Of a stretch of DNA of 52,648 nucleotides, positions 27,659-41,630 are shown in pieces. The notes below the pieces were generated by a model. It did not search any database. It worked only from the letters and a program-made list of their open reading frames with translations, and was not told the DNA's origin. Location of the stretch: NCBI GenBank assembly GCA_029262065.1, contig JAJDAC010000013.1, forward strand, positions 1-52,648. The letters run 5' to 3'. Positions within the stretch are counted from its first letter, which is position 1; every line of letters starts with the position of its first letter. Made by a program: the position numbers and the translations under genes. The DNA is from Candidatus Krumholzibacteriota bacterium. GTDB lineage: Bacteria > Krumholzibacteriota > Krumholzibacteriia > JAJRXK01.

Positions 27659-27861
27659 GATCGTAGAAGTTCCTTGGAAATAGGGCTCAGAGCTGGGACT
27701 CACGAATAGGTGCATGCTCACGGTCGATCCGTGCAGATCTACTCGAGTTCGCGCCTGGGCTCGGCCACGGCGGGGGTGGTCCGACTTCTTGATCACCGCT
27801 ATTCCTCGTGCTAGCGTCCAACCATGGCTCCCTGTATTCCTATCTTCCACAAGATGTTGCC

Positions 27862-30414
27862 GTGATCGGCCAGGTCGTTGGCGGCTACCAGATCCTGGAA
27901 CGGCTGGGTGCCGGCGGCATGGGGGTGGTCTACCGCGCGCGCGATCCTCGGTTGGAACGCGATGTGGCCATCAAGTTCATCTCACCGTCCAGTGCGGCGG
28001 ACGAGACCGCGAAGGCGCGTTTCCTACGCGAGGCGCGCGCCGCATCGGCGCTGGATCATGCCAACATCTGTGCCATCCACGGCGTCGACGAAACCGACGA
28101 CGGACAGCTCTATATTGTCATGGGGTACTACCCCGGCGAGAACCTCAGCGCTCGTATCGCGCGCCAGCGGCCTACTCCGGGCCAGGGGCTGGAACTCGCG
28201 GTCCAGATCGCGGCGGGAGTAGCCAAGGCCCACGAGGTGGGCGTGGTGCATCGCGACCTGAAGCCATCCAACGTCATGGTGACCAACGACGGCGTGGTGA
28301 AGATCCTCGACTTCGGCCTGGCCAAACGCATGGAATCGCAGGACGACGACCTCACGCAGACCGGCACGTCCATGGGCAGCCCGTGGTTCATGTCCCCAGA
28401 GCAGGTGAGGGGCGAGTCGCTGGATGCCCGCACCGATGTTTGGTCGATGGGCGTGATGTTGCACGAGTTGTTGGCGGGCGAGCGTCCCTTCGCGCGTGAG
28501 AGCATGGCGGCATCGTTGTACGCGGTGGTGAACGACCCCACGCCGAAAATGCCCGACACCGTGCCGGCACGGTTGCGCGAGATTGTGGCGTCGTGCCTCC
28601 AGAAAGATCGCAACCAGCGTTGGCCAGATGCGGCCTCGCTGTACCGCGAGTTGCACGCACAACATCGCCTCCTGGGAGACGATGACACGCGGACGCAGCC
28701 GCTGGAGTCGATCGGAGAAGCCACGGTGCCATTGTCTGGCACCACTGCCGTTCTACCAACCAGGAGATCGTCGGTACGGCAAGGGCTGCTGGCCGTATTG
28801 TTCCTTGCGGTGCTTGCCAGCGCTGGATGGGGTGGGTGGAAGCTACTGAACCCCGCGGTCGATCCATTGCGCGTGGTGGTTGTTTCTCCGCGAGTAACAG
28901 CCGACGTCGAAGGGGCAGGTGAGAGGGCCGAACTGTCCGTCCGCGCCGACATCCTGAAGAGCCTTGGCGCGCTGCGCGATGTGGTGCCCATCGACCCAAC
29001 CGTCGCTGGCCAGGCCGAGGGTGGATCCTTGGCCATGGCGCGTGCACTGAACGCAACCGATCTCATCACGGCCGAAGTCGCGGTTCACGGTTTGGACATG
29101 AAGGTTGCACTTCAGCGTATCGATGTTGTCGACGGTTCAGTTGTTTGGAGTGGAGAAGTGAGCGCCCCTACCAATTCACGGCTTCCGTTGTCGAAGGCGC
29201 TGCTGGGACGCGTACGCAGTGCCTTTCCGGAGCGAAGAGTTCGTCGGGGTATGGAATCGTTCGATGTCGACCCCGTGGCTTATGAGCGTTTGATGGAACT
29301 GGTGGCGACCAAGCCGACGGAAGCAAGCCTTGACTCGCTTCGCTCCGCGACGGACCAGGTTGTCGCCATCCAACGGCTGGCCCCGAGTTTCGCAGAGGCC
29401 TACGTTTGGGAGGCACGGTTCGCCTATCTCATGTTCTGGCGTTCGCGGGAGGTGGCCGACTACGACCGTTGTGTGGATGCCGTCAAGAAAGCTCGTGAGC
29501 TAGCGCCGGACAGCCCCTTGCCTTTGAGCGCGCTCCTCCGATTGCAGCTGATCGACGATCGTGTTGACGAAGCTCGTATTACGCTGAAGGAATTGGAGCG
29601 AGTTACACCAGGAGACGTGGGCCTTTTTGTGTGGAAGGCCAAGCTCGCGTACCAGACGCAGGACAGCGAAAAAGCGGTGGCCCTGATGACCGAGGCTGCG
29701 TCCCGCCTTCCGTCGGCGCTGAATCTCTTCGAGCTAGCTGAAATGCAGTACAACCTCAACCGATTTGATGCAGCGATCTCTACCTTGGAAGACCTCCTCG
29801 ATCGATTTCCGGGCCGGCGGGAGGCTCAGTCCAAATTGGCTGAGATCGAGCTTCTATACGGCGATCCCGCGCGGGCGGACGAACTCTACACCGATCTCAT
29901 TGAGCGGACCGGAGCAGAGAATTTCCACGTGAATCGTGGTTTGGCCAGAGAGTTGTTGGGCCAATACGAACTCGCACTGGCCGACATGGAAGTGGCCATG
30001 GAGCAGGCGCCCAAGAACGCCTATTACCGCCTGAATCTAGCCGACTGCCTTGCGTTGGTGGGCAGGCAGGAAGAGGCGAAACGGAATTACGCACTTGCAC
30101 TCACGCAGTACCTTCCTTTGGAGAATCTGACCAGTTGGGATGACCTGATGGTTGCGGCCCAGTGCCTTGTGCATCTGGACCGCAAGGATGAGGCGATCGA
30201 AGCGGTGAACCGCGCATTGCGTTCAGCCAATGAAGAGGCCGAGATGTTCTACCTGGCCTCGCTCGTGTACGCCGTCACAGGAGAGCGCGCGTCGGCCGTA
30301 TACAACGCCAACGAGGCCCTCCGGCTGGGTACAGAGCCACGTTGGTTCTGGCTTCCATGGTTTGATCCAATCCGTGACGAATTGCCCACGGCCGCCCAGG
30401 GTCAGTCCACCTGA
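27862..30414 (+). CDS. Ser/Thr protein kinase with transmembrane segment and TPRs
   Basis: The start is GTG at 27862, giving a protein that begins M-I-G-Q-VVGGYQILERLGAGGMG, the usual opening of this family; an earlier GTG at 27808 would add 18 residues. Kinase motifs: glycine loop GAGGMG (16-21), Lys38, HRDLKPSN (His130-Arg131-Asp132) and DFGLA (Asp150). A single membrane segment at about 308-330 links the cytosolic kinase to an extracytoplasmic region. That region first resembles the FlgN/TolB-like domain of such kinases (about 340-450) and then several TPRs (about 460-800). Family members sense envelope or small-molecule signals and phosphorylate regulators, often FHA or SpoIIE partners; an FHA-SpoIIE phosphatase lies 1.2 kb downstream. 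It is convergent with the tectonin-like gene, six bases apart. Confidence 0.92.
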   Translation: MIGQVVGGYQILERLGAGGMGVVYRARDPRLERDVAIKFISPSSAADETAKARFLREARAASALDHANICAIHGVDETDDGQLYIVMGYYPGENLSARIARQRPTPGQGLELAVQIAAGVAKAHEVGVVHRDLKPSNVMVTNDGVVKILDFGLAKRMESQDDDLTQTGTSMGSPWFMSPEQVRGESLDARTDVWSMGVMLHELLAGERPFARESMAASLYAVVNDPTPKMPDTVPARLREIVASCLQKDRNQRWPDAASLYRELHAQHRLLGDDDTRTQPLESIGEATVPLSGTTAVLPTRRSSVRQGLLAVLFLAVLASAGWGGWKLLNPAVDPLRVVVVSPRVTADVEGAGERAELSVRADILKSLGALRDVVPIDPTVAGQAEGGSLAMARALNATDLITAEVAVHGLDMKVALQRIDVVDGSVVWSGEVSAPTNSRLPLSKALLGRVRSAFPERRVRRGMESFDVDPVAYERLMELVATKPTEASLDSLRSATDQVVAIQRLAPSFAEAYVWEARFAYLMFWRSREVADYDRCVDAVKKARELAPDSPLPLSALLRLQLIDDRVDEARITLKELERVTPGDVGLFVWKAKLAYQTQDSEKAVALMTEAASRLPSALNLFELAEMQYNLNRFDAAISTLEDLLDRFPGRREAQSKLAEIELLYGDPARADELYTDLIERTGAENFHVNRGLARELLGQYELALADMEVAMEQAPKNAYYRLNLADCLALVGRQEEAKRNYALALTQYLPLENLTSWDDLMVAAQCLVHLDRKDEAIEAVNRALRSANEEAEMFYLASLVYAVTGERASAVYNANEALRLGTEPRWFWLPWFDPIRDELPTAAQGQST

Positions 30415-31641: not shown

Positions 31642-33270
31642 ATGCCCGACCTTCATCTTGAGTGGACCGACGACGCCGGCGATCTGCACGCGTTCCCGGT
31701 TACCGGCGACGCGATCCTGATTGGACGCCGCTTCGAGTGCGACCTGGTGCTCCCGTTCGATTTCATTTCGGGCAACCACGCGCGAGTCGAGCGCAATGCG
31801 CGCGGCAACGTGAGGATCGAGGATCTCGGCAGCACCAACGGCACGTTCGTGAACGACAAGAAGGTCAAGAGTGCGGCCATCGAAGTCGGTGATCGCATAG
31901 GCTTCGGTCAGCTGACCTTGCATCTTCGAAGCTCCGACGAGGTCGCCGCGGGGTCTGGCGATGCCCTCGAGGAATTCGCGACCCAGTTTCACAGCAGTAG
32001 TGGCGACAGCCCGGGCGGGCTGGACAAGCTCTCCGTACTTCTTGAGTTCCAGCTCAAGTGGGGGCAGAGCTTCAGCGCTCCCGATCTTTTTCGCGCTATT
32101 CTTCGCCATGCCCTGGAACTGAGTCACGCGCAGCGGGGGTTTGTGCTCGTACGCAACGACGAGGGGTTCGAGTTCGCGGCCGGGCTCGATGAAACGGGCT
32201 CGTCCCTGCACGCCGACAGCTTTACCACCAGCCGCAGCGTGGTTCGCAAGGTGAGCGAGGAGCGCGAACCCGTGTTCATGATGACCGGCATCACGGGGGA
32301 CTTCGCAGAGGAAGAGAGTATCAGGGCCATGGACCTGCGTGCGGTGGCTTGCCTTCCTCTACTGGAGTCGGCGGGGGAGAACGAACCCAGTCTGGTCGCG
32401 GGAATTCTGTATCTCGATAGTACGCTTGGCATGCACCGGCTCAGCGGGCTCGACGAGCAGATTCTACAGGGGTTGGCGGTGGAGGCGGCGCGCGTGTTGG
32501 AGCGCCTGGGCATGCTCCGAGACCGCGAAGAGCGCGAGAACATCGAGCGCGAACTACAGCTCGCGCGCCAGACCCAGGAAGAGCTTCTTCCGCGCAAACT
32601 CCCCGACAGCGCGGAGTGGACCGTGCGGGCCTGGTGTCGACCGACCCGTCAGGTTGGCGGAGATCTTTTCGACTTCATCCAGCGAGACTCCGGCAACCTG
32701 GTTGGGTTGCTGGCCGACGTCTCGGGCAAGGGTGTGGCCGCGTCGCTTCTGAGCTCCTCGGTGCAGGGCGCAATGCAGGCGTGGGTGCGCGCGGGCCTTG
32801 GGTTGCAAAAGTGTGTAGAGGGGTTGAACGCCTACCTTTGTGAAAGGTCTCGCGACGATCGGTTCGTCACGCTCTTCACTTTCGATCTCTCGCGCGAAGG
32901 CCATGGCGTCTATGTCAACGCGGGACACTTGCCTGCCCTGGTGTTTCGCGCCGCGGACGGTCGCGTGGAGCAACTCGACGAACGCGGACTGGTGGTTGGT
33001 GCGTTGGAGGACATGTCCTACATCGAACACGAACTGACGTTGGCCAGCGGCGACCTGCTACTCGTGTACTCCGATGGGGTGACCGAGGCGGCCGACGGAA
33101 AAGGAGAAGAATTCGGTGAGGAGCAACTCGAAAGGGTCTTCACCGCGGCGGCGTCGCAGGGAATTGCGGCCACGGCCGATGCCCTCGATGCCGCTCTCGC
33201 GACTCACCTGGACGGCGGCGAGCCCGGCGACGATGTGACCGTGGTGTTGTTGGGGAGGGTGGCGCCCTGA
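31642..33270 (+). CDS. FHA-GAF-SpoIIE-type Ser/Thr phosphatase (RsbU-like)
   Basis: The 542-residue protein has an FHA domain (about 1-95; IGRRFECDLVL, SGNHARVERN, DLGSTNGTFVN), a GAF domain (about 130-295), a short coiled linker (about 295-320; RDREERENIERELQLARQTQ) and a PPM/SpoIIE phosphatase domain (about 330-540). The phosphatase motifs are VGGDLFDFI, LADVSGKGVAASL, YSDGVTEA and GDDVTVVLL. FHA binds phosphothreonine, so a Ser/Thr kinase such as that at 27862 could recruit it. SpoIIE/RsbU phosphatases dephosphorylate STAS proteins, and an RsbW-STAS pair lies at 40901-41630. It could be the activating phosphatase of a partner-switch. Confidence 0.92.
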   Translation: MPDLHLEWTDDAGDLHAFPVTGDAILIGRRFECDLVLPFDFISGNHARVERNARGNVRIEDLGSTNGTFVNDKKVKSAAIEVGDRIGFGQLTLHLRSSDEVAAGSGDALEEFATQFHSSSGDSPGGLDKLSVLLEFQLKWGQSFSAPDLFRAILRHALELSHAQRGFVLVRNDEGFEFAAGLDETGSSLHADSFTTSRSVVRKVSEEREPVFMMTGITGDFAEEESIRAMDLRAVACLPLLESAGENEPSLVAGILYLDSTLGMHRLSGLDEQILQGLAVEAARVLERLGMLRDREERENIERELQLARQTQEELLPRKLPDSAEWTVRAWCRPTRQVGGDLFDFIQRDSGNLVGLLADVSGKGVAASLLSSSVQGAMQAWVRAGLGLQKCVEGLNAYLCERSRDDRFVTLFTFDLSREGHGVYVNAGHLPALVFRAADGRVEQLDERGLVVGALEDMSYIEHELTLASGDLLLVYSDGVTEAADGKGEEFGEEQLERVFTAAASQGIAATADALDAALATHLDGGEPGDDVTVVLLGRVAP

Positions 33271-33500: not shown

Positions 33501-34136
33501 ATGCCCTCGCTGATGGATGCCCCCATGTCTGTTTCCCCCGACTCCCAAAACGAGCGCCAACTTCCCTTCACCCCGGAAGTACTTAGGACGAACCAAGCTC
33601 GCGAAGACGCCGCGCAGGTCAAGCGCGCCCTTGCCGGCGAGCCCGAAGCATTTGATTGTCTCGTCCAAAGGTATCAGCCTGTGCTCTACAACGTGGCTTT
33701 GCGAGTTACCGGAAACCCAGACGACGCGCAGGACATCGCACAGATGGCCTTCCTGCGAGCCTGGACCAACCTGCATAAATTCGATCCAGGGCGCAGATTC
33801 TTCAGCTGGCTGTATCGGATTGCGTTGAATCTTTCGCTGACGACGAAGTCGCGGCGAGCCGAAATAACCGAAGTTCCCGAAAACCTCGCCAGTATCGCGG
33901 CTTCTCCGCTCGAAGAAATAGAGATGCGTCAGCGCCGCCAGAGCATGAACAAGGCCATTGCCTCGTTGCCGTTGCACTATCGCGAGGTGGTGTTGCTTCG
34001 GCATATGGGCGAGCTGAGCTACCAGGAGATCGCCGACGCTCTCGGGTTACCCGAAAAAACCGTCAAGTCTCGTCTCTTCACCGCCCGTCGACAGCTGGCC
34101 GAACAGGTTTCCCGCTCGGAAGGGCACATGACGTGA
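33501..34136 (+). CDS. ECF-type RNA polymerase sigma factor
   Basis: The 211-residue protein has sigma-70 region 2 (about 45-112; FDCLVQRYQPVLYNVALRVT, DAQDIAQMAFLRAW, FFSWLYRIALN) and region 4 (about 150-203; LPLHYREVVLLRHMGELSYQ, DALGLPEKTVKSRLFTARRQ). No region 3, fitting group IV (RpoE/SigW-like) factors. Met codons at 33513 and 33525 are alternative starts; none has a clear ribosome site, and the first lies directly after a hairpin. The stop overlaps the next start by four bases (GTGA), a common arrangement for sigma/anti-sigma pairs. It should direct transcription under envelope stress and probably of its own cluster. Confidence 0.93.
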   Translation: MPSLMDAPMSVSPDSQNERQLPFTPEVLRTNQAREDAAQVKRALAGEPEAFDCLVQRYQPVLYNVALRVTGNPDDAQDIAQMAFLRAWTNLHKFDPGRRFFSWLYRIALNLSLTTKSRRAEITEVPENLASIAASPLEEIEMRQRRQSMNKAIASLPLHYREVVLLRHMGELSYQEIADALGLPEKTVKSRLFTARRQLAEQVSRSEGHMT

Positions 34137-34957
34137 GCCACCTTCCGCCGATCGATGAGGGTCTCGATGCGATCGCGCAGTCCGTACTCGACGGCACGGC
34201 CGACGCCTCGACCATTGAACGATTTCACGCGCGGGTGGCCGAAGACGACAATCTGCGGTCTCACTTTGAAAGCCTGCGGAACACGTTCGCGGCGCTCGAC
34301 TCCCTCGACCGCGCGGAATCTCCGGCTGAGATACACCGCGCGGTCATGGAACAGGTCGCGATCGGTCGACCGCCCTCGCCAGTTCGAGTAGCCAACTCCG
34401 AACGCTGGCGCCCACGCCTGGGACGTGCTCGTGAATGGTTTGCCTTTGCCGCGGGAGCGGCGGCGGTTGCACTGCTCTCGGTGATGATCCCCAGCCTTTC
34501 GAACCGCACCGAGCCCTCGCTCAACGATGCCATGGGCACGCTGCTGCTGGCGAACTTCGATCGTTCCGCTACCGAGTCCCAGGCCTGGAGTTGGTCCGAG
34601 TCATGGGGGAGCGGCGAGGCTGTCATGCGCGAGGAATCGCATCGCACGGTGGTTAGCATTCATTTCCAGGGCACTGAGCCCACGACGATTGCGCTTGGTT
34701 TCGACCCCGAGCGGTTCGAGTTGGCAGAGTTCGGAGCAGCGGATGCCGTATCAAGCGCTCGCATTGACCGACCCGGTGCCCTGGAGTTGGTCTTGGGACA
34801 GCAGAACCACGTAGCCGTGGTGTTCACTCCTCGCGGTTCACCGAGTGGTTCCCCGGATATCGAGATCGGAGTTCTGACGTCGCGCGGTGATGTCAGGACC
34901 CGGCTGGGCAGCGGTTCCTCGGAGAATCTTTCGCCCGGCACCAACTTCGACGGATGA
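34133..34957 (+). CDS. Single-pass membrane protein, probable anti-sigma factor
   Basis: The 274-residue protein has a cytosolic N-terminus (about 1-100) of charged helices, one membrane segment (about 101-120; WFAFAAGAAAVALLSVMIPS) and an extracytoplasmic C-terminus (about 120-274) with beta character. This is the layout of ECF anti-sigma factors. No HxxxCxxC zinc motif is present, so it is not of the zinc-binding ZAS type. It overlaps the sigma gene by four bases, and 64 bases separate it from the repeat-protein gene. The GTG start fits the overlap. The identity rests on context and topology rather than a recognised family. The PrsW-type protease at 39871 could act on its membrane segment. 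Confidence 0.75.
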   Translation: MSHLPPIDEGLDAIAQSVLDGTADASTIERFHARVAEDDNLRSHFESLRNTFAALDSLDRAESPAEIHRAVMEQVAIGRPPSPVRVANSERWRPRLGRAREWFAFAAGAAAVALLSVMIPSLSNRTEPSLNDAMGTLLLANFDRSATESQAWSWSESWGSGEAVMREESHRTVVSIHFQGTEPTTIALGFDPERFELAEFGAADAVSSARIDRPGALELVLGQQNHVAVVFTPRGSPSGSPDIEIGVLTSRGDVRTRLGSGSSENLSPGTNFDG

Positions 34958-35021
34958 GAAGAGTACGTAGCAATAGACCCCTGAGGGTCAATTTCGAAAG
35001 ACCCGTGACCGGAGGTAGAAC

Positions 35022-36785
35022 ATGTCGAGTAAGGCAATACTGATCGGCATCGCGATCTTGGCCGTGGCGGTTGTGGCTTACTTTGGTGTTACCGGCTATC
35101 CGCCGTCCGAAGACGGAGCCGAGGGAACCATTGGGGTGGCCGAGCGTCACCAGACCACACAGATCAAGGCGTCGGACATCAAGCTGGAGGACCCCGAGTT
35201 CCAGCAATGGCTACAGAGTGACGTCGTGCAACGCATGATCACCGACGAAACCTTCACTCGGGTGTTTGCTCGGGCCGACGTCCAGGCTGCGCTGGCAAGT
35301 CCGCAAATGCAGGCCGCGTTGGCGAGCCCTCAGTTCCAGAAGGCCCTCGCTTCACCGGACTTCCAGGCGGCGCTGGCCAGCCCGGACTTCCAGGCTGCTT
35401 TGGCGTCGCCCGCGTTTCAGGCGGCTCTGGCCAATCCTCAGTTCCAACAGGCTCTGGCCAGCCCGGACTTCCAGGCCGCCTTGGCCAAGCCCGAGTTCCA
35501 GCAGGCCTTGGCCAACCCTCAGTTCCAGTCGGCCTTGGCCAACCCTCAATTCCAGTCGGCCCTGGCCAGTCCCGAGTTCCAGTCGGCCCTGGCGTCGCCT
35601 GAATTCCAGTCGGCTTTGGCCCGGCCCGAGTTCAGCTCGGCCATGGCCAGCGCGGAGTTCCAACAGGCTCTGGCCAGTCCGCAGTTTCACGCCGCGCTGG
35701 CCAACCCGGCAATTGCCCAGGCCCTGGCTTCGCCCGATTTCCGATCCGCGTTGGCGCGCCCGGAGTTTCGCGACGCCCTGGCTTCGCCGGACCTTCGCGC
35801 GTCCTTGGCCTCGGCCGAGTTCCAGCAGGCGCTGGCCAACCCGGAAATTCGCGACGCGATGGCTCGTCCGGAGTTTCAGCAGGCTTTGGCATCGGCCGAC
35901 CTGCGTCAGTCTTTCGGCCGGCCCGAATTCCGCGACGCGTTGGCGAACCCCGACGTTCGTCGGGCGCTGGCCTCGCCCGATTTCCAGGCGGCCCTGGCCA
36001 ACCCCGAGTTGAAGCAGGTCTTTGCCAAGCCCGAGATGCAGGCGGCCCTGGCCCGTCCTGACTTCCGTCAGGCATTGGCGAACCCCGACATGCAGGCTGC
36101 CTTGGCCCGGCCGGATTTCCGCAACGCTCTGGCGAATCCGGACATCCATGCCGCGTTGGCCAGCCCCGACCTGCGTGCGGCGCTAGCCCGACCCGAGGTG
36201 CGTGACGCCATGGCGCGTCCGCAGTTTGCCCAGGCATTGGCGAGCGCCGACATTCGCGCGGCGTTGGCGAACCCCGAGTTCCAGCAGGCGTTGGCTCGAC
36301 CCAACGTGCGCGACGCCATGGCCAACCCGCAGTTCACCGCCGCGCTGGCGAGTCCCCAGGTGCGTCAGGCTCTGGCCACGCCAGACTTCCGCGCCGCCTT
36401 GGCTGCTCCCGGCTTCCAGCAGGCTCTGGCCAACCCGGCCATGCGCCAGGCCATGGCGGCGCCAAACTTCCGTCGCGCCTTGGCTTCGGCCGACGTGAGG
36501 CAGATGTTGGCTCGTCCCGAAATGCGCGAAGCGATGGCCCAGCCGCAGGTCGTGGCGGCCTTGGCCTCGCCCAACTTCCGCTCGGTGCTGGCCCAGCCAA
36601 ACCTGCGTCAGGCGTTGGCGAATGCCGACTTGCGGCAGGTCATGGCCAACCCGGAAATGCGCCAGGTGATGGCGAAGCCCGATCTGCAGGCAGCGCTGGC
36701 GAACCCGGCGTTTCGTCAGGCGCTGGCCAATCCGGACTTCGTGCAGTCGATGGCTCGCGGTGATTTGAAGTCAAAGATCGACTAA
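35022..36785 (+). CDS. Membrane-anchored protein of 55 nine-residue repeats (STI1-like motif)
   Basis: The 587-residue protein starts with one hydrophobic segment (about 4-24) and a linker (25-59). Three degenerate nonamers follow (60-86), then 55 uninterrupted nine-residue units (87-581) and a short basic tail (LKSKID). The unit consensus is F-x-x-A-L-A-(S/N/R)-P-(D/E/Q), with position 1 hydrophobic, 4-6 Ala-Leu/Met-Ala, and Pro (rarely Ala) at 8. The Ser/Asn-Pro-Asp/Glu turns look like helix N-caps, so each unit may be a short helix in a regular solenoid or filament. By eye it resembles the NPxxxxxL repeats of STI1/ubiquilin domains that hold hydrophobic segments. GGAGGTAGAAC precedes the ATG. 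It is the third gene of the sigma unit and probably a sigma target. The family and function are not known to me. Confidence 0.9.
   Translation: MSSKAILIGIAILAVAVVAYFGVTGYPPSEDGAEGTIGVAERHQTTQIKASDIKLEDPEFQQWLQSDVVQRMITDETFTRVFARADVQAALASPQMQAALASPQFQKALASPDFQAALASPDFQAALASPAFQAALANPQFQQALASPDFQAALAKPEFQQALANPQFQSALANPQFQSALASPEFQSALASPEFQSALARPEFSSAMASAEFQQALASPQFHAALANPAIAQALASPDFRSALARPEFRDALASPDLRASLASAEFQQALANPEIRDAMARPEFQQALASADLRQSFGRPEFRDALANPDVRRALASPDFQAALANPELKQVFAKPEMQAALARPDFRQALANPDMQAALARPDFRNALANPDIHAALASPDLRAALARPEVRDAMARPQFAQALASADIRAALANPEFQQALARPNVRDAMANPQFTAALASPQVRQALATPDFRAALAAPGFQQALANPAMRQAMAAPNFRRALASADVRQMLARPEMREAMAQPQVVAALASPNFRSVLAQPNLRQALANADLRQVMANPEMRQVMAKPDLQAALANPAFRQALANPDFVQSMARGDLKSKID
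35280..36764 (+). repeat. Tandem array of 55 coding 27-bp units
   Basis: The repeats of the membrane-anchored protein are exactly 27 bases long without insertions. Neighbouring units keep protein identity but differ at many synonymous positions, e.g. units 10-13 use GCC TTG, GCC CTG and GCT TTG for Ala-Leu. The array is therefore old and held by selection on the protein, not a recent slippage product. Confidence 0.9.
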
Positions 36786-36922: not shown

Positions 36923-39874
36923 ATGTCTGCTCGTTGCCGTGTGCGTTTCGCTGCTCTCTTCCTTCTGGCCGTCTCCACATGCGTCACGGCAAACGCTCGC
37001 GCGCAACTCTACTCGTTGGAAACCGATGACCTGCGCCTGATCTATCTACACCCGGTTCATACCTATCTCGCTCCGCACATCGCCCGCTGTTTCCAGAACT
37101 CGCTTGAATTCCAGAAGCGCGCGTTCGACTTCGAATCGGACGAGAAGGTTACGGTAATACTCAGCGACTTCTCGGACATGGGAAACGCGGGTGCGGGGTC
37201 GGTGCCCCGCAACGGCATGGCGGTGATGATCGCTCCACTGGCGTTCACCTACGAAACGTATCCCGCCAACGAGCGCATGAACACGCTCATGAACCACGAG
37301 TTGGTGCACGTGGTGAACTTCGATCGAGCGGTGGGAAGCGATCGGTTCTTTCGAGGGCTATTTCGTGGCAAGGTTCGCGCGGTGGCCGAACATCCCGAGA
37401 CCATTGTCTACAACTACCTGACGGCTCCCCGCGCCAGCGCGCCCCGATGGTATCATGAAGGCATTGCGGTATTCGTGGAAACGTGGATGGCCGGAGGCAT
37501 TGGCCGCGCCCAGGGCTCGTACGATGAAATGGTGTTCCGCGCGATGGTGCGGGATGGAAGCCGATTCTACGACCCATTGGGACTGGTGGCCGAGGGCACG
37601 CAAACCGATTTTCAATTGGAAATGAACTCGTATTTGTATGGCGCTCGTTTCATGAGCTGGCTGGCGTACGAGCGTTCGCCTGCAAAGTTGATGGAGTGGG
37701 TGACTCGCGCGCCGGGAACCCGCGGCCACTACGCCCGGCAGTTCGGCAAGGTATTCGATCAATCGCTCGATGACGCCTGGCGAGAGTGGATTGCTTTTGA
37801 GCGGGAGTTTCAGGCCGCCAACCTCGATTCGCTACGGCGCTATCCGGTGACTTCCTTCCGTGACATTTCAAGTCGCGGCCTGGGATCCATCTCCAGAGCC
37901 TGGTACGATCCCGATGAGAGTAGATTATACGTGGCGCTGAACTATCCGGGACGGGTGGCGCATGTGGCGGCCATCGATCTGGCCACGGGCGACATCGAAA
38001 GCCTCGTGGACGTGAAGGGACCCGTGCTCTATAGCGTCACTTCGCTGGCGTGGGACGCTCAAAGTCGAAAGCTGTTCTACACCACCGACAATTCTGCCTA
38101 CCGCGATATTGTCGAACTGGATCCCAGCACCGGCGAGACACGGCTACTGATGGAAGACGCAAGGGTGGGCGATATCGTGGTGGACCCCAGTGACGGCGCG
38201 ATATGGGGCATCCGTCACTACAACGGAATCGCCACAATCGTTCGCATTCCCCAGCCGTACACCGAATGGAACCAGGTGGTATCGCTGGAGTACGGCACGG
38301 TTCCCTACGATCTCGACATTTCTCCCGACGGTCAAATGATCGCGGCCGGGTTTGCCACTGCCGATGGTCGCGCCGAGGTTCGGGTTCTCGACGCCCAGGC
38401 ACTGCGCGCGTCGGGCGAGATGGTCGTGCTGCACCATTTCGATTTCGGTACGACGATTCCCATGAATTTTGTCTTCACGCCCGACGGCGAACAGTTGATG
38501 GGATCTTCCAACTTGACCGGCGTTTCCAATCTGTTCCGTTTCGATCTGCAGCAGGGCAAATGGGACGCGCTGACCAACACCGAAACTGGCCTGTTCCGGC
38601 CGGTGCCCGTGTCGGCAGACAGCGTTGTTGCGTTTCGGTTCACCGGTCAGGGGTTCGTGCCCTCGTGGCTGGAGGTGTCGCCACTGGAAGACCTGAACGC
38701 CATCAGCTTCCTGGGGGCGCGCATGGTGGAGCGCTACCCGGAATTGGCTGGCTGGCGGGTGGGATCTCCGGCCGAGGTGCCGCTGGACTCGATGATTACC
38801 TATCGCGGATCGTATCCGGCCCTCGCCAGCCTGGAGCTCGAGGCAATCTATCCGGTGGTGGAAGGCTACAAGCACTACACCGCCGCGGGGCTAAGCATGG
38901 ACCTGGGAGACCCTCTGGGCCTGCATCGATTCCACGCCACGGCAAGCTATACGCCCGATGGACGGCTGGATGAAGATCAGCGGTTTCACGCCCAGGCGTC
39001 CTATCGGCGCTTCGATTGGCGCGTCAGTGCCAAGTACAACGACGCGGACTTCTACGATCTGTTCGGACCAACCAAGAACAGTCGCAAGGGCTACTCCCTG
39101 GGTTTGGGATGGACGAAGAATCTCATCAACGATGCGCCGCGCAAACTCGATTTCAATATCGACGTCGCCGGGTGGGGAAACCTGGAGACCCTGCCAGACT
39201 ACCAGAATGTGTCGGCGTCGTTTGAAGAGCTGCTTACCGGTACCGCAAGGCTTGATTGGAGCAACCTCCGGTTCTCCATCGGCGCCGTGGACTACGAGAA
39301 GGGAACCCGGGCGTCAGTCCACGTGTCAGACAATCATGTGAACGGCCGCAGTTTTCCCAGCCTGGTTGGTGAGGCCCATCTGGGTGTTCCCGGTTTGATG
39401 ACCAACTCATCGTGGTGGCTGCGAAGCGCAGCGGGAGTCGCGCCGGCCGACCGCGACGAGCCTTTCTCCAACTTCTTTCTCGGTGGGTTTGGCAACAACT
39501 GGGTGGATCGAGGGGAGACCAAGCGCTATCGCGAATGGTACGCTTTTCCGGGTTTCGAGTTGAACGAGCTGGGCGGCACGAACTTCGTGAAGACCATGGT
39601 CGACTGGAATCTACCGCCGCTGCGCTTTCGCCGTCTCGGTCGGCCTGGTCTATACGCCAGCTGGATAAGAGCCAGCCTGTTCGGTGCCGGACTGATCACG
39701 AACGTCGATAATTCCGCTCTGAGTATGAAGGCCGCGAGTTTTGGCGGGCAAATCGATTTGCGAATGACCTTGTTGTCCCACCTGAGATTCACCGCCTCCG
39801 TTGGCTATGCAGTTGGCATTCGTGAAGGCCGACGGCAAGACAACGAATTGATGTTCTCCTTGAAAATCCTGTGA
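36923..39874 (+). CDS. Secreted metallopeptidase-propeller-outer-membrane-barrel fusion
   Basis: The 983-residue protein has a signal peptide (about 1-28). A gluzincin-type peptidase domain (about 30-300) carries HELVH (His125, Glu126, His129) and a downstream HEGIAVFVET as candidate third-ligand region. Residues about 310-610 form a TolB-like beta-propeller (LYVALNYPGRVAHVA, DLDISPDGQMIAAGFAT, NFVFTPDGEQLMG). From about 640 to the end the sequence alternates in amphipathic strands and ends in FSLKIL, like an Omp85/surface-antigen barrel. The combination would place a protease and a sensor propeller on an outer-membrane anchor. It precedes the PrsW-like gene with a four-base overlap. It may degrade damaged envelope proteins, but the substrate is unknown. 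Confidence 0.85.
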   Translation: MSARCRVRFAALFLLAVSTCVTANARAQLYSLETDDLRLIYLHPVHTYLAPHIARCFQNSLEFQKRAFDFESDEKVTVILSDFSDMGNAGAGSVPRNGMAVMIAPLAFTYETYPANERMNTLMNHELVHVVNFDRAVGSDRFFRGLFRGKVRAVAEHPETIVYNYLTAPRASAPRWYHEGIAVFVETWMAGGIGRAQGSYDEMVFRAMVRDGSRFYDPLGLVAEGTQTDFQLEMNSYLYGARFMSWLAYERSPAKLMEWVTRAPGTRGHYARQFGKVFDQSLDDAWREWIAFEREFQAANLDSLRRYPVTSFRDISSRGLGSISRAWYDPDESRLYVALNYPGRVAHVAAIDLATGDIESLVDVKGPVLYSVTSLAWDAQSRKLFYTTDNSAYRDIVELDPSTGETRLLMEDARVGDIVVDPSDGAIWGIRHYNGIATIVRIPQPYTEWNQVVSLEYGTVPYDLDISPDGQMIAAGFATADGRAEVRVLDAQALRASGEMVVLHHFDFGTTIPMNFVFTPDGEQLMGSSNLTGVSNLFRFDLQQGKWDALTNTETGLFRPVPVSADSVVAFRFTGQGFVPSWLEVSPLEDLNAISFLGARMVERYPELAGWRVGSPAEVPLDSMITYRGSYPALASLELEAIYPVVEGYKHYTAAGLSMDLGDPLGLHRFHATASYTPDGRLDEDQRFHAQASYRRFDWRVSAKYNDADFYDLFGPTKNSRKGYSLGLGWTKNLINDAPRKLDFNIDVAGWGNLETLPDYQNVSASFEELLTGTARLDWSNLRFSIGAVDYEKGTRASVHVSDNHVNGRSFPSLVGEAHLGVPGLMTNSSWWLRSAAGVAPADRDEPFSNFFLGGFGNNWVDRGETKRYREWYAFPGFELNELGGTNFVKTMVDWNLPPLRFRRLGRPGLYASWIRASLFGAGLITNVDNSALSMKAASFGGQIDLRMTLLSHLRFTASVGYAVGIREGRRQDNELMFSLKIL

Positions 39875-40887
39875 CCGAGATCGTCCCCGCTCTGCTCGCC
39901 CTGCTGCCGGTTGTGGCTTTTCTTGCGTTGCTCCGCGGCATGGACGCCTATCGTCTGGTTCCGTTGCCATCGGCTCTGCAGTCTCTACTCGCGGGTGTTG
40001 TGGCCGCTGCATTGGCCGCTCTCATCAATCGGTTGGTATGGGAGGGCGCCCACCCACCCTGGCAGTTGATGTCCCGATACGTCGGTCCGACAGTGGAGGA
40101 GATTGCGAAAGGCGCTTGGCCCCTGCTGTTGGTGAGGCGAAACCGCTGTGGATTCCAGGTCGATGCCGCAATCCACGGGTTCGCGGCGGGCGCGGGGTTT
40201 GCGCTCATGGAGAATCTCTACTATTTGCGAACCCTACCCGACGCAAGCCACGCACTCTGGGCGGTACGCGGGCTGGGTACTGCGGTCATGCACGGTTGTA
40301 CCACCGCCATCGTGGGCATCGTGGCGAAGGACCTCTGCGATCGGCACGCCAGCACGGCACTTCATTGGTTGGTTCTGGCTTTGGTCCCCGCGATTGTCTT
40401 GCACTCCGCGTTCAATCACTTTCTCTTCGGGACCGTCGCCACCACGCTTCTACTGCTTACACTTTTTCCCCTGGTAACCCTTGCAGTGTTTGCCAGGAGC
40501 GAGCGCGCAACCCGTCGGTGGCTCGGAAGCGGCTTTGATACTGATACAGAACTGTTGGAACTCTTGTTTGCGGGCGAATTGCCGGCTTCGCCCGTGGGCC
40601 GGTATCTGGACTCGTTCCGTAGCAGTTTTGCTCCCGACGTGGTAGGCGACATGCTTTCCTATTTGCAGGTGAGTCTTGAGCTATCGGTACGCGCGAAAGG
40701 AATCCTGTTGGCGCGAGAGAGCGGGCTCGATTTGCCGGTGGGTGAAGATGTCGCGCCCAAGCTCAAGGAAATGCGGTGGCTCGAACAGCGGCTGGGGGCG
40801 GCGGGGCGACTTGCTTTGGGGCCGTTGGTCCATCGCAGTGCGCGTGACTTGTGGCAGGTGATGGCGTTGAAGGAGCGGCTTCGCTGA
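39871..40887 (+). CDS. prsW: PrsW-family intramembrane protease
   Basis: The 338-residue membrane protein carries the PrsW family motifs: EEIAK (Glu76, Glu77, Lys80) in a membrane segment, GFALMEN (Glu114), MHGCTT and LHSAFNH. About eight hydrophobic segments lie within residues 5-235, and a helical tail (about 240-338) follows. PrsW of Bacillus subtilis is the site-1 protease that cleaves the anti-sigma factor RsiW. Here an ECF sigma/anti-sigma pair lies 5 kb upstream on the same strand, so a similar role is plausible. It starts with GTG overlapping the preceding stop (GTGA) and ends 13 bases before a convergent STAS gene. Confidence 0.88.
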   Translation: MTEIVPALLALLPVVAFLALLRGMDAYRLVPLPSALQSLLAGVVAAALAALINRLVWEGAHPPWQLMSRYVGPTVEEIAKGAWPLLLVRRNRCGFQVDAAIHGFAAGAGFALMENLYYLRTLPDASHALWAVRGLGTAVMHGCTTAIVGIVAKDLCDRHASTALHWLVLALVPAIVLHSAFNHFLFGTVATTLLLLTLFPLVTLAVFARSERATRRWLGSGFDTDTELLELLFAGELPASPVGRYLDSFRSSFAPDVVGDMLSYLQVSLELSVRAKGILLARESGLDLPVGEDVAPKLKEMRWLEQRLGAAGRLALGPLVHRSARDLWQVMALKERLR

Positions 40888-40900
40888 GAACACGCCGGAT

Positions 40901-41185
40901 CTATTCGATGGTCAGGATCTGGTCCAGGCCAGCGTAGTGGAAGATATTGCGGATGTGGGGAGGAGCTTCCACCAAACGGAGTTCCTGCCCTTCAGCCTTC
41001 AGACGCTTGAAGGTTTGCAGAACCACGCCGATGCCAGCGCTCGCAATGTAGTCCAGTCCCGCCAGGTTGATGGTCAGAGGGCCCGTCGCTTGCCCCAGCG
41101 TTGCTTGGGCGGCCTCGACCTGGGCCGCGTCAAATCGGCCCGACAGCGCAAGGACACCGCCTTCACGTTCTTCGATCTTCAGCAT
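40901..41185 (-). CDS. STAS-domain anti-sigma factor antagonist
   Basis: The 94-residue protein is a single STAS domain: IEEREGGVLALSGRFD, INLAGLDYIASAGIGVVLQTF and the helix ending in GLDQILTI. Ser49 in DYIASAGI is the expected phosphorylation site. Phosphorylation by an RsbW-like kinase would block it and dephosphorylation by a SpoIIE phosphatase would free it. GGAGGAAAG lies directly before the ATG at 41185; longer readings are unsupported. The start overlaps the end of the RsbW-like gene by 23 bases. Confidence 0.92.
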   Translation of the reverse strand: MLKIEEREGGVLALSGRFDAAQVEAAQATLGQATGPLTINLAGLDYIASAGIGVVLQTFKRLKAEGQELRLVEAPPHIRNIFHYAGLDQILTIE

Positions 41186-41630
41186 CTTTCCTCCGCGCCA
41201 GCAGAACCACGGTAGTGGTGCTATCTCCGGCCTCGTGATGATAGTCGAGTGAATCGACCATGTGCAGAACCAGGTGGAGGCCCAGTCCTCCGGGTTGGCG
41301 TTGTTCCAGTGGCGCACGGGTGTCGACCCGAGGCGCGCTGCGCGGATCGAAGGCGTGGACGCCTCGATCCACGAACCGAAGGACCAGGGATTGGGGGCTT
41401 CCCGCACGGGTGCCGGCGATCACCTCGATCGGATGTTTGCCCTCTGGGTTGTACTTCACCAGGTTCGTGAACAACTCCTCGGCCACCAACTCGGCGCGTC
41501 GAACCAAGGAAGAATCCAGTGCCAGGCGCGCACAGTGGGTTCGGACGAACGAGAACAGGCCCTCCAGTGATTCCATTTCACGGGGTAGCGCCAACTGAAC
41601 GGTGTCGGTAAGTTCCAGATCCATGCTCAT
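41163..41630 (-). CDS. RsbW-like anti-sigma serine kinase (HATPase)
   Basis: The 155-residue protein is a GHKL ATPase of the RsbW type: VAEELFTNLVKY (N-box Glu and Asn), FVDRGVHAFDP (G1-like) and GGLGLHLVLHMVDS (G2). Such proteins phosphorylate a STAS antagonist and bind a sigma factor. It overlaps the STAS gene by 23 bases and precedes it in one operon. The matching phosphatase is likely the FHA-GAF-SpoIIE protein at 31642. No group-3 sigma-B-type factor is in the window, so its final target is unknown. Met at 41624 is an alternative start. Confidence 0.92.
   Translation of the reverse strand: MSMDLELTDTVQLALPREMESLEGLFSFVRTHCARLALDSSLVRRAELVAEELFTNLVKYNPEGKHPIEVIAGTRAGSPQSLVLRFVDRGVHAFDPRSAPRVDTRAPLEQRQPGGLGLHLVLHMVDSLDYHHEAGDSTTTVVLLARRKDAEDRRT

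Follow-up and report, generated by a model that had tools for sequence, protein, structure and literature searches.

The window, meaning the whole stretch of 52,648 nucleotides analysed here, carries a gene for a membrane-anchored protein with a long array of nine-residue repeats, set among genes of sigma factor control (Table 1). The gene of the ECF sigma factor, which is of the stress type, overlaps that of an anti-sigma factor with one transmembrane (TM) segment, the arrangement of an ECF sigma/membrane anti-sigma module; this TM segment is followed by 'GTL', and slot and layout of the gene are as in its relatives. The repeat gene is followed by that of a large HExxH protein, hereafter the barrel protein; among ten members of its family, Peptidase_MA_2 (0.0029), PD40 (1.2e-4) and Omp85_2 (4.8e-4) came up as weak matches. 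The HExxH motif was found in 89 of 89 relatives of this protein and the EExxK motif in 78 of 79 relatives of the PrsW-family protease, which is encoded intact together with the anti-sigma factor, as in systems under PrsW control. An SpoIIE-type phosphatase upstream is a probable partner-switching input, and a HATPase/STAS pair is encoded downstream, on the minus strand. A Ser/Thr protein kinase with TPR repeats is encoded upstream of the locus (27808-30414), and similar kinases were seen near 7 of 36 sufficiently long relative loci.

Table 1. Features of the locus, with positions in the window.
Feature	Position	Strand	Basis or remark
FHA-GAF-SpoIIE (PP2C-type) phosphatase	31642..33270	+	Pfam SpoIIE 5e-42, FHA 2e-18, GAF 4e-6
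ECF sigma factor	33501..34136	+	Pfam Sigma70_r2 5e-18, r4_2 7e-17; TIGR02937 5e-33
Membrane anti-sigma factor	34133..34957	+	Overlaps sigma stop; NCBIfam NF052375 7.5e-10, below its cut-off
Ribosome-binding site of repeat gene, GGAGGT	35011..35016	+	Sequence
Anchored nonamer-array protein	35022..36785	+	ATG start, 587 aa
Conserved anchor (aa 1-60)	35022..35201	+	Alignments; HMM matches across phyla
Head segment (aa 57-85), FQQWLQSDVVQRMITDETF	35190..35276	+	Common to most period-9 relatives
Array of 55 nonamers (aa 86-580)	35277..36761	+	Predicted one 7-8-residue helix per unit
HExxH metallopeptidase-like/beta-propeller/C-terminal beta-barrel-like protein, 983 aa	36923..39874	+	HELVH and HEG(I/M)A conserved
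PrsW-family membrane protease	39871..40887	+	Overlaps barrel-gene stop by 4 bp; Pfam PrsW (PF13367) 4e-21
STAS-domain antagonist	40901..41185	-	Pfam STAS_2 9e-14
RsbW-like HATPase, kinase partner of the STAS protein	41163..41630	-	Pfam HATPase_c_2 2e-16

The nonamer array and its anchor

Autocorrelation of the repeat protein confirmed the 55 consecutive nonamers described in an earlier note on this DNA: all units stand in one register, and the period is sharp, with residue identities of 0.50-0.55 at lags of 9, 18, 27 and 36 compared to 0.05-0.13 at other lags. By column, the unit consensus is [DEQ]-F-[RQ]-[QA]-A-L-A-[SNR]-P, with alanine at position 7 in 54 and proline at position 9 in 48 of the 55 units. 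Typically, RTX nonapeptide repeats are calcium-binding beta-roll units of the type GGxGxDxUx. This pattern is absent from the window array, whose unit [DEQ]FxxALA[SN]P gave no RTX family match and is predicted to be helical. Two antisense open reading frames (35352-36149 and 35632-36237) were discarded as shadows of the repeat.

At the DNA level, identical codons were used for the same residue at a frequency of 0.44, compared to 0.385 expected from codon usage, and neighbouring units were no more alike (0.584) than distant ones (0.591). Since codon identity is close to expectation and neighbours are no closer to each other than distant units, the array is not the product of recent slippage. 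This implies that it is old and that selection on the protein has apparently kept it uniform.

The N-terminal membrane anchor proposed in the same note proved to be a single hydrophobic helix (H3-24), and the periplasmic location suggested there for the array is likely, judging from the sequence. The three degenerate leading units of that account (EFQQWLQSD, VVQRMITDE and TFTRVFARA) are indeed present, but they actually correspond to a head motif, (E)xQ..(L/M)Q(S/T/N)D..., that is found in most period-9 members of the family.

Conservation of the operon and divergence of the repeats

With the barrel protein as bait, at least 558 relatives were detected in a collection of 84,980 species, and the best 80 were fetched. 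According to the record labels, these best 80 of at least 558 bring the operon from about a dozen phyla and almost only from uncultured bacteria; the labels comprise Acidobacteriota, Gammaproteobacteria, Eisenbacteria, Zixibacteria, KSB1, Ignavibacteria, Bacteroidota, Balneolaceae, Caldithrix, Neomarinimicrobiota, Aminicenantes, Latescibacterota and Krumholzibacteriia. The conserved gene order is ECF sigma, anti-sigma, anchored repeat protein (slot 3), barrel protein and PrsW, usually preceded in the relatives by SpoIIE phosphatase, HATPase and STAS genes. Where at least 3.2 kb of sequence precedes the barrel gene (47 loci), an anchored repeat protein adjoins this gene in 44 cases and a sigma gene lies upstream in 40, while PrsW directly follows the barrel gene in 63 of 68 loci. 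An SpoIIE-type gene is located near 20 of the 36 relative loci with at least 5.5 kb upstream. STAS genes immediately precede 51 of 58 sigma genes, and HATPase genes lie upstream of 47 of the 58. The conserved stretch upstream of the sigma genes is the coding end of STAS; an ECF-type promoter was seen there in 2 of 27 cases, with no signal above background.

In the class to which the window belongs, 21 genomes encode the barrel protein, and 20 of them the anchored protein as well; of 59 genomes lacking the barrel protein, about 2 encode the anchored protein (Fisher 1e-15). The anchored gene was single copy in all 20 carrier genomes tested. The anchor model is specific: anchors were detected in 2 of 369 gammaproteobacterial genomes; in the phylum of a Holophagae MAG labelled Acidobacteriota (G098, locus L076) 14 of 297 genomes had one, and in the class of an Ignavibacteriales MAG (G108) 15 of 197. 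This wider search gave two matches in each of two genomes. Altogether, the linkage to sigma and protease genes, which the earlier note had offered as an inference to be checked by a survey of neighbours in homologues, is strongly supported by the conserved operon, by co-occurrence and by the gene fusions described below.

Some loci depart from the common arrangement. Three Neomarinimicrobiota-like loci (L146, L148, L149) keep arm, barrel protein, PrsW and SpoIIE, with no sigma gene seen in the available stretch; their arm is rich in Asp, Gln and Phe and has a period of 9 that is only weak. Two Vicinamibacteria-type MAGs (L100, L103) encode the barrel protein with no sigma factor, anchored array or PrsW within 6 kb.

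When related genomes were searched with the repeat protein, the N-terminus was matched and the repeats remained unmatched in most hits. Alignments of the relatives define the anchor as a TM helix plus the juxtamembrane motif PP...GTIG..(K/R)(Y/H)(R/Q)..Q(I/M)...D(V/I).L. Strong internal repetition was detected in 69 of 78 anchored proteins, which range in length from 187 to 807 aa. About half have a period of 9 or a multiple thereof and about a quarter a period of 12 or 6; periods of 10, 11 and 13 also occur. One clade has a period of 12. Period 9 is the commonest among the relatives detected, so that the earlier statement that no family shares this exact period does not hold. Period-9 units vary between species (FRAALANDA, FARALGNAD, FAELAKDAR, LQAALKSPE and VAAALANKD are examples), while 1051 units from 31 proteins share the pattern hydrophobic-x-x-(A/L)-(L/M)-x-(S/N/D)-x-x, and 79% of these units have an N-cap residue [SNDT] for a helix at position 7.

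Other repeats fill the array slot at L082:5007-5855, L140:4766-5737, L124:4938-5822 and L119:2-1225, namely PDADGGRQIKL (11 residues), VDIDAQKRQN-type (12), GLSGKE (6) and a 20-residue unit with ADRPWKWQKLF. The genome of the window also encodes a second, short anchored protein of 187 aa with the GTIG motif and no array (L003:1306-1869; match G000:C15:126513-126659). In genome G012 an anchored protein of 108 aa without array (L040:6181-6504), possibly a short paralogue, adjoins an SpoIIE-type gene.

Ten open reading frames (in L086, L088, L104, L115, L118, L126, L132, L137, L141 and L147) join an anti-sigma domain (E 5e-16 to 2e-26), a TM segment, a GTIG-type motif and a nonamer array in frame, and no separate anti-sigma gene was seen in any of these ten loci. 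The fusion of the repeats to the inhibitor in some bacteria suggests that they form its sensor arm. In a FastTree phylogeny of the barrel protein, fusion accounts for about three changes of state and period for about four. The window copy clusters with those of Eisenbacteria, Acidobacteria and Gammaproteobacteria and apart from the members of its own class that have period 12. This indicates that the class holds two versions, and gene transfer is a possible cause. One record titled Bifidobacterium breve (L085) groups with Acidobacteriota in this tree; its MAG label is probably wrong.

A rival reading is a mainly mechanical role, in which a trans-periplasmic rod would tether the inner membrane to the outer-membrane barrel protein, or act as a ruler, while the sigma factor merely controls expression. 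The fixed pairing with the barrel gene, the predicted rod-like repeat and the conservation of the hydrophobic pattern with variable surface residues fit such a tether. We nevertheless hold it to be rather unlikely, as the fusions to the anti-sigma factor favour signalling and the spread of protein lengths argues against a strict ruler of the periplasm, which we disfavour.

'GT(I/M)' behind the TM segment is enriched in anti-sigma factors and anchors (26 of 46, compared to a background of 10%), whereas profile alignment of the juxtamembrane segments of the two gave no significance. The shared motif is a candidate for a protease or contact site common to both. A conserved motif just beyond the TM helix would also suit an array that is cut there by PrsW and/or the HExxH peptidase and exported through the Omp85-like barrel as a surface fibre or coat, as would the weak Omp85_2 similarity of the barrel and the divergence of units between species, which is frequent in surface proteins. 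Export of this kind would make the anti-sigma fusions hard to explain and fits poorly with a period that changed only about four times on the tree; we regard it as very improbable.

Predicted fold and family resemblances

An AlphaFold2 model of the repeat protein, based on 26 aligned relatives (pLDDT 74, pTM 0.47), places one two-turn helix of 7-8 residues on every nonamer, which would amount to some 58 short helices following one another without a break. For a period-12 relative, one helix of about 10 residues per unit was predicted, which lends weak support to the helix-per-unit arrangement because confidence was low (pLDDT 57). AlphaFold2 over-predicts solenoids for artificial perfect repeats and may be over-confident on repeats (PMC11795689), so that the overall shape of the array in this model is tentative. 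The N-cap recurring every nine residues independently supports one helix per unit. Neither Foldseek nor VIA found a solved structure resembling the whole protein; Foldseek matches to TALE and designed repeats (TM-scores of at most 0.25) and VIA matches (Z of at most 5.4, under the level that VIA's notes deem meaningful for repeats) were dismissed.

The earlier note had likened the units to STI1 chaperone domains. The window protein does pass the curated cut-off of PF17830 (STI1-HOP_DP; 1e-24, 86.6 bits compared to 29.1), and like STI1/HOP DP and ubiquilin STI1 domains it has short helices opened by N/D/S-P-(D/E) at a spacing of about nine residues. The match was kept after within-column shuffling and mostly lost upon column permutation or reversal of the array. 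As it needs the column order, PF17830 reads the local pattern P-[DE]-phi-x-x-A-L. Control arrays of this kind scored 1e-8 to 1e-11 against unrelated families, which were matched by permuted and reversed arrays as well, and PF17830 matches at E of at most 0.01 in 12 of 26 relatives stand beside many to unrelated families. Moreover, proline occupies its unit position in only 13% of the 1051 period-9 units, compared to 48 of 55 in the window. On the low family-wide conservation of proline and the permutation controls we do not consider STI1 membership supported; the score is inflated by repetition, the Asp/Asn-Pro signature is absent from most relatives, and we read the resemblance as probable convergence on a common way to start short helices. 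STI1 is a compact, U-shaped domain of six helices whose groove is rich in Met (PMC13083928), compared to an array of 55 units here. No STI1 structure was listed by Foldseek or VIA for the model, a listing that is by itself a weak test of the STI1 fold.

A holdase or unfolded-protein sensor, whose hydrophobic face would bind unfolded outer-membrane proteins or stray hydrophobic segments and signal its occupancy via the anti-sigma factor, could draw on the column-order-dependent PF17830 and UBQLN1 pattern matches and on the regular F, L and A positions of the window units. Given the missing STI1 signature in most relatives, the 12-mer and 11-mer arrays in the equivalent slot and the similar scores of unrelated families, this seems quite improbable to us.

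The B-domain of coagulation factor V likewise has nine-residue repeats; the match to this protein (2.5e-14), with no supporting feature, was taken as repeat-driven, and Pfam matches to Med31, DUF826, Plasmodium HRP, RPN13_C and others as noise from repetitive sequence. The 12-residue helical repeats of period-12 relatives match MgtE_N-like helical superhelices (1.5e-14 and 9e-18), but these are pattern-level matches on repeat arrays with no MgtE domain, and the period in the window is 9.

A putative sensor arm and its counterparts

The presence of a sigma factor, a membrane anti-sigma factor and PrsW, together with the fusions, is most simply explained if the array gives the anti-sigma factor a periplasmic input arm, with PrsW-type proteolysis as the readout. 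We propose, with a probability of roughly 0.6, that the repeat protein serves a membrane-bound sigma/anti-sigma system for envelope signalling as its sensor arm in the periplasm. The missing sigma gene in the available stretches of the three Neomarinimicrobiota-like loci, the non-significant profile alignment of the juxtamembrane segments and the modest pTM of a model built on 26 aligned sequences speak against it. Gene order, co-occurrence, fusions, conserved anchor and repeat anatomy are the observed framework, to which the proposal would add periplasmic topology, sensing, proteolysis and contact with the outer-membrane protein.

One TM helix would fix the arm in the inner membrane; beyond the conserved juxtamembrane segment GTIG..KYR..Q..D, 55 two-turn helices would form a rod or solenoid. 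The arm would be part of the anti-sigma polypeptide in some relatives and a separate partner encoded by a neighbouring gene in the window and most others; direct contact of the two in the window is assumed, since they are separate genes there. At rest, the arm would keep the anti-sigma factor intact, and the outer-membrane peptidase/propeller/barrel protein may hold the arm. A change in the envelope would shift the state of the arm and open the juxtamembrane region to PrsW, perhaps also to the HExxH peptidase, upon which the anti-sigma factor would be degraded and the sigma factor released. The SpoIIE/HATPase/STAS partner switch would provide a second, cytoplasmic input.

More tentatively, the locus may represent a new trans-envelope sigma apparatus, in which an alpha-solenoid of nine-residue units, fused to the anti-sigma factor or acting as its partner, extends towards the outer-membrane barrel protein and reports envelope state or spacing to the sigma factor via PrsW, the partner switch being a second input; we consider this possible but doubtful. 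If true, the nine-residue units would be among the shortest helical solenoid repeats.

We found no published description of the locus in the open-access literature, most subscription papers lying outside the scope of the search. With up to eight genes, the conserved locus appears to encode sigma signalling with a repeat-built periplasmic arm and offers a concrete gene set for asking how the envelope, its state or its width, is sensed in Gram-negative bacteria. It also poses an evolutionary puzzle, as the units are uniform within a protein despite near-saturated synonymous sites, yet differ between species.

In Bacillus subtilis, site-1 cleavage of the anti-sigma factor RsiW is carried out by PrsW (PMC3498285). 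The SigW-RsiW-PrsW system of this species and other ECF systems controlled by RIP share with the present locus an ECF sigma factor, a membrane anti-sigma factor and a PrsW-family protease; the locus described here adds the repeat arm, the outer-membrane-type HExxH/propeller/barrel protein and the SpoIIE/HATPase/STAS switch. To our knowledge, RsiW has no helical repeat arm. Anti-sigma factors of the RsgI type have a large extracytoplasmic sensing part and are released by membrane proteolysis (PMC12203970). The proposed system resembles them in pairing an anti-sigma factor that has a large extracytoplasmic sensor with, presumably, membrane proteolysis. The sensors of RsgI are extracellular binding modules or disordered linkers, whereas the sensor proposed here is a helical nonamer array. 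We conclude that the locus is a variant of the membrane anti-sigma systems under RIP control, distinguished by an unusual putative sensor arm.
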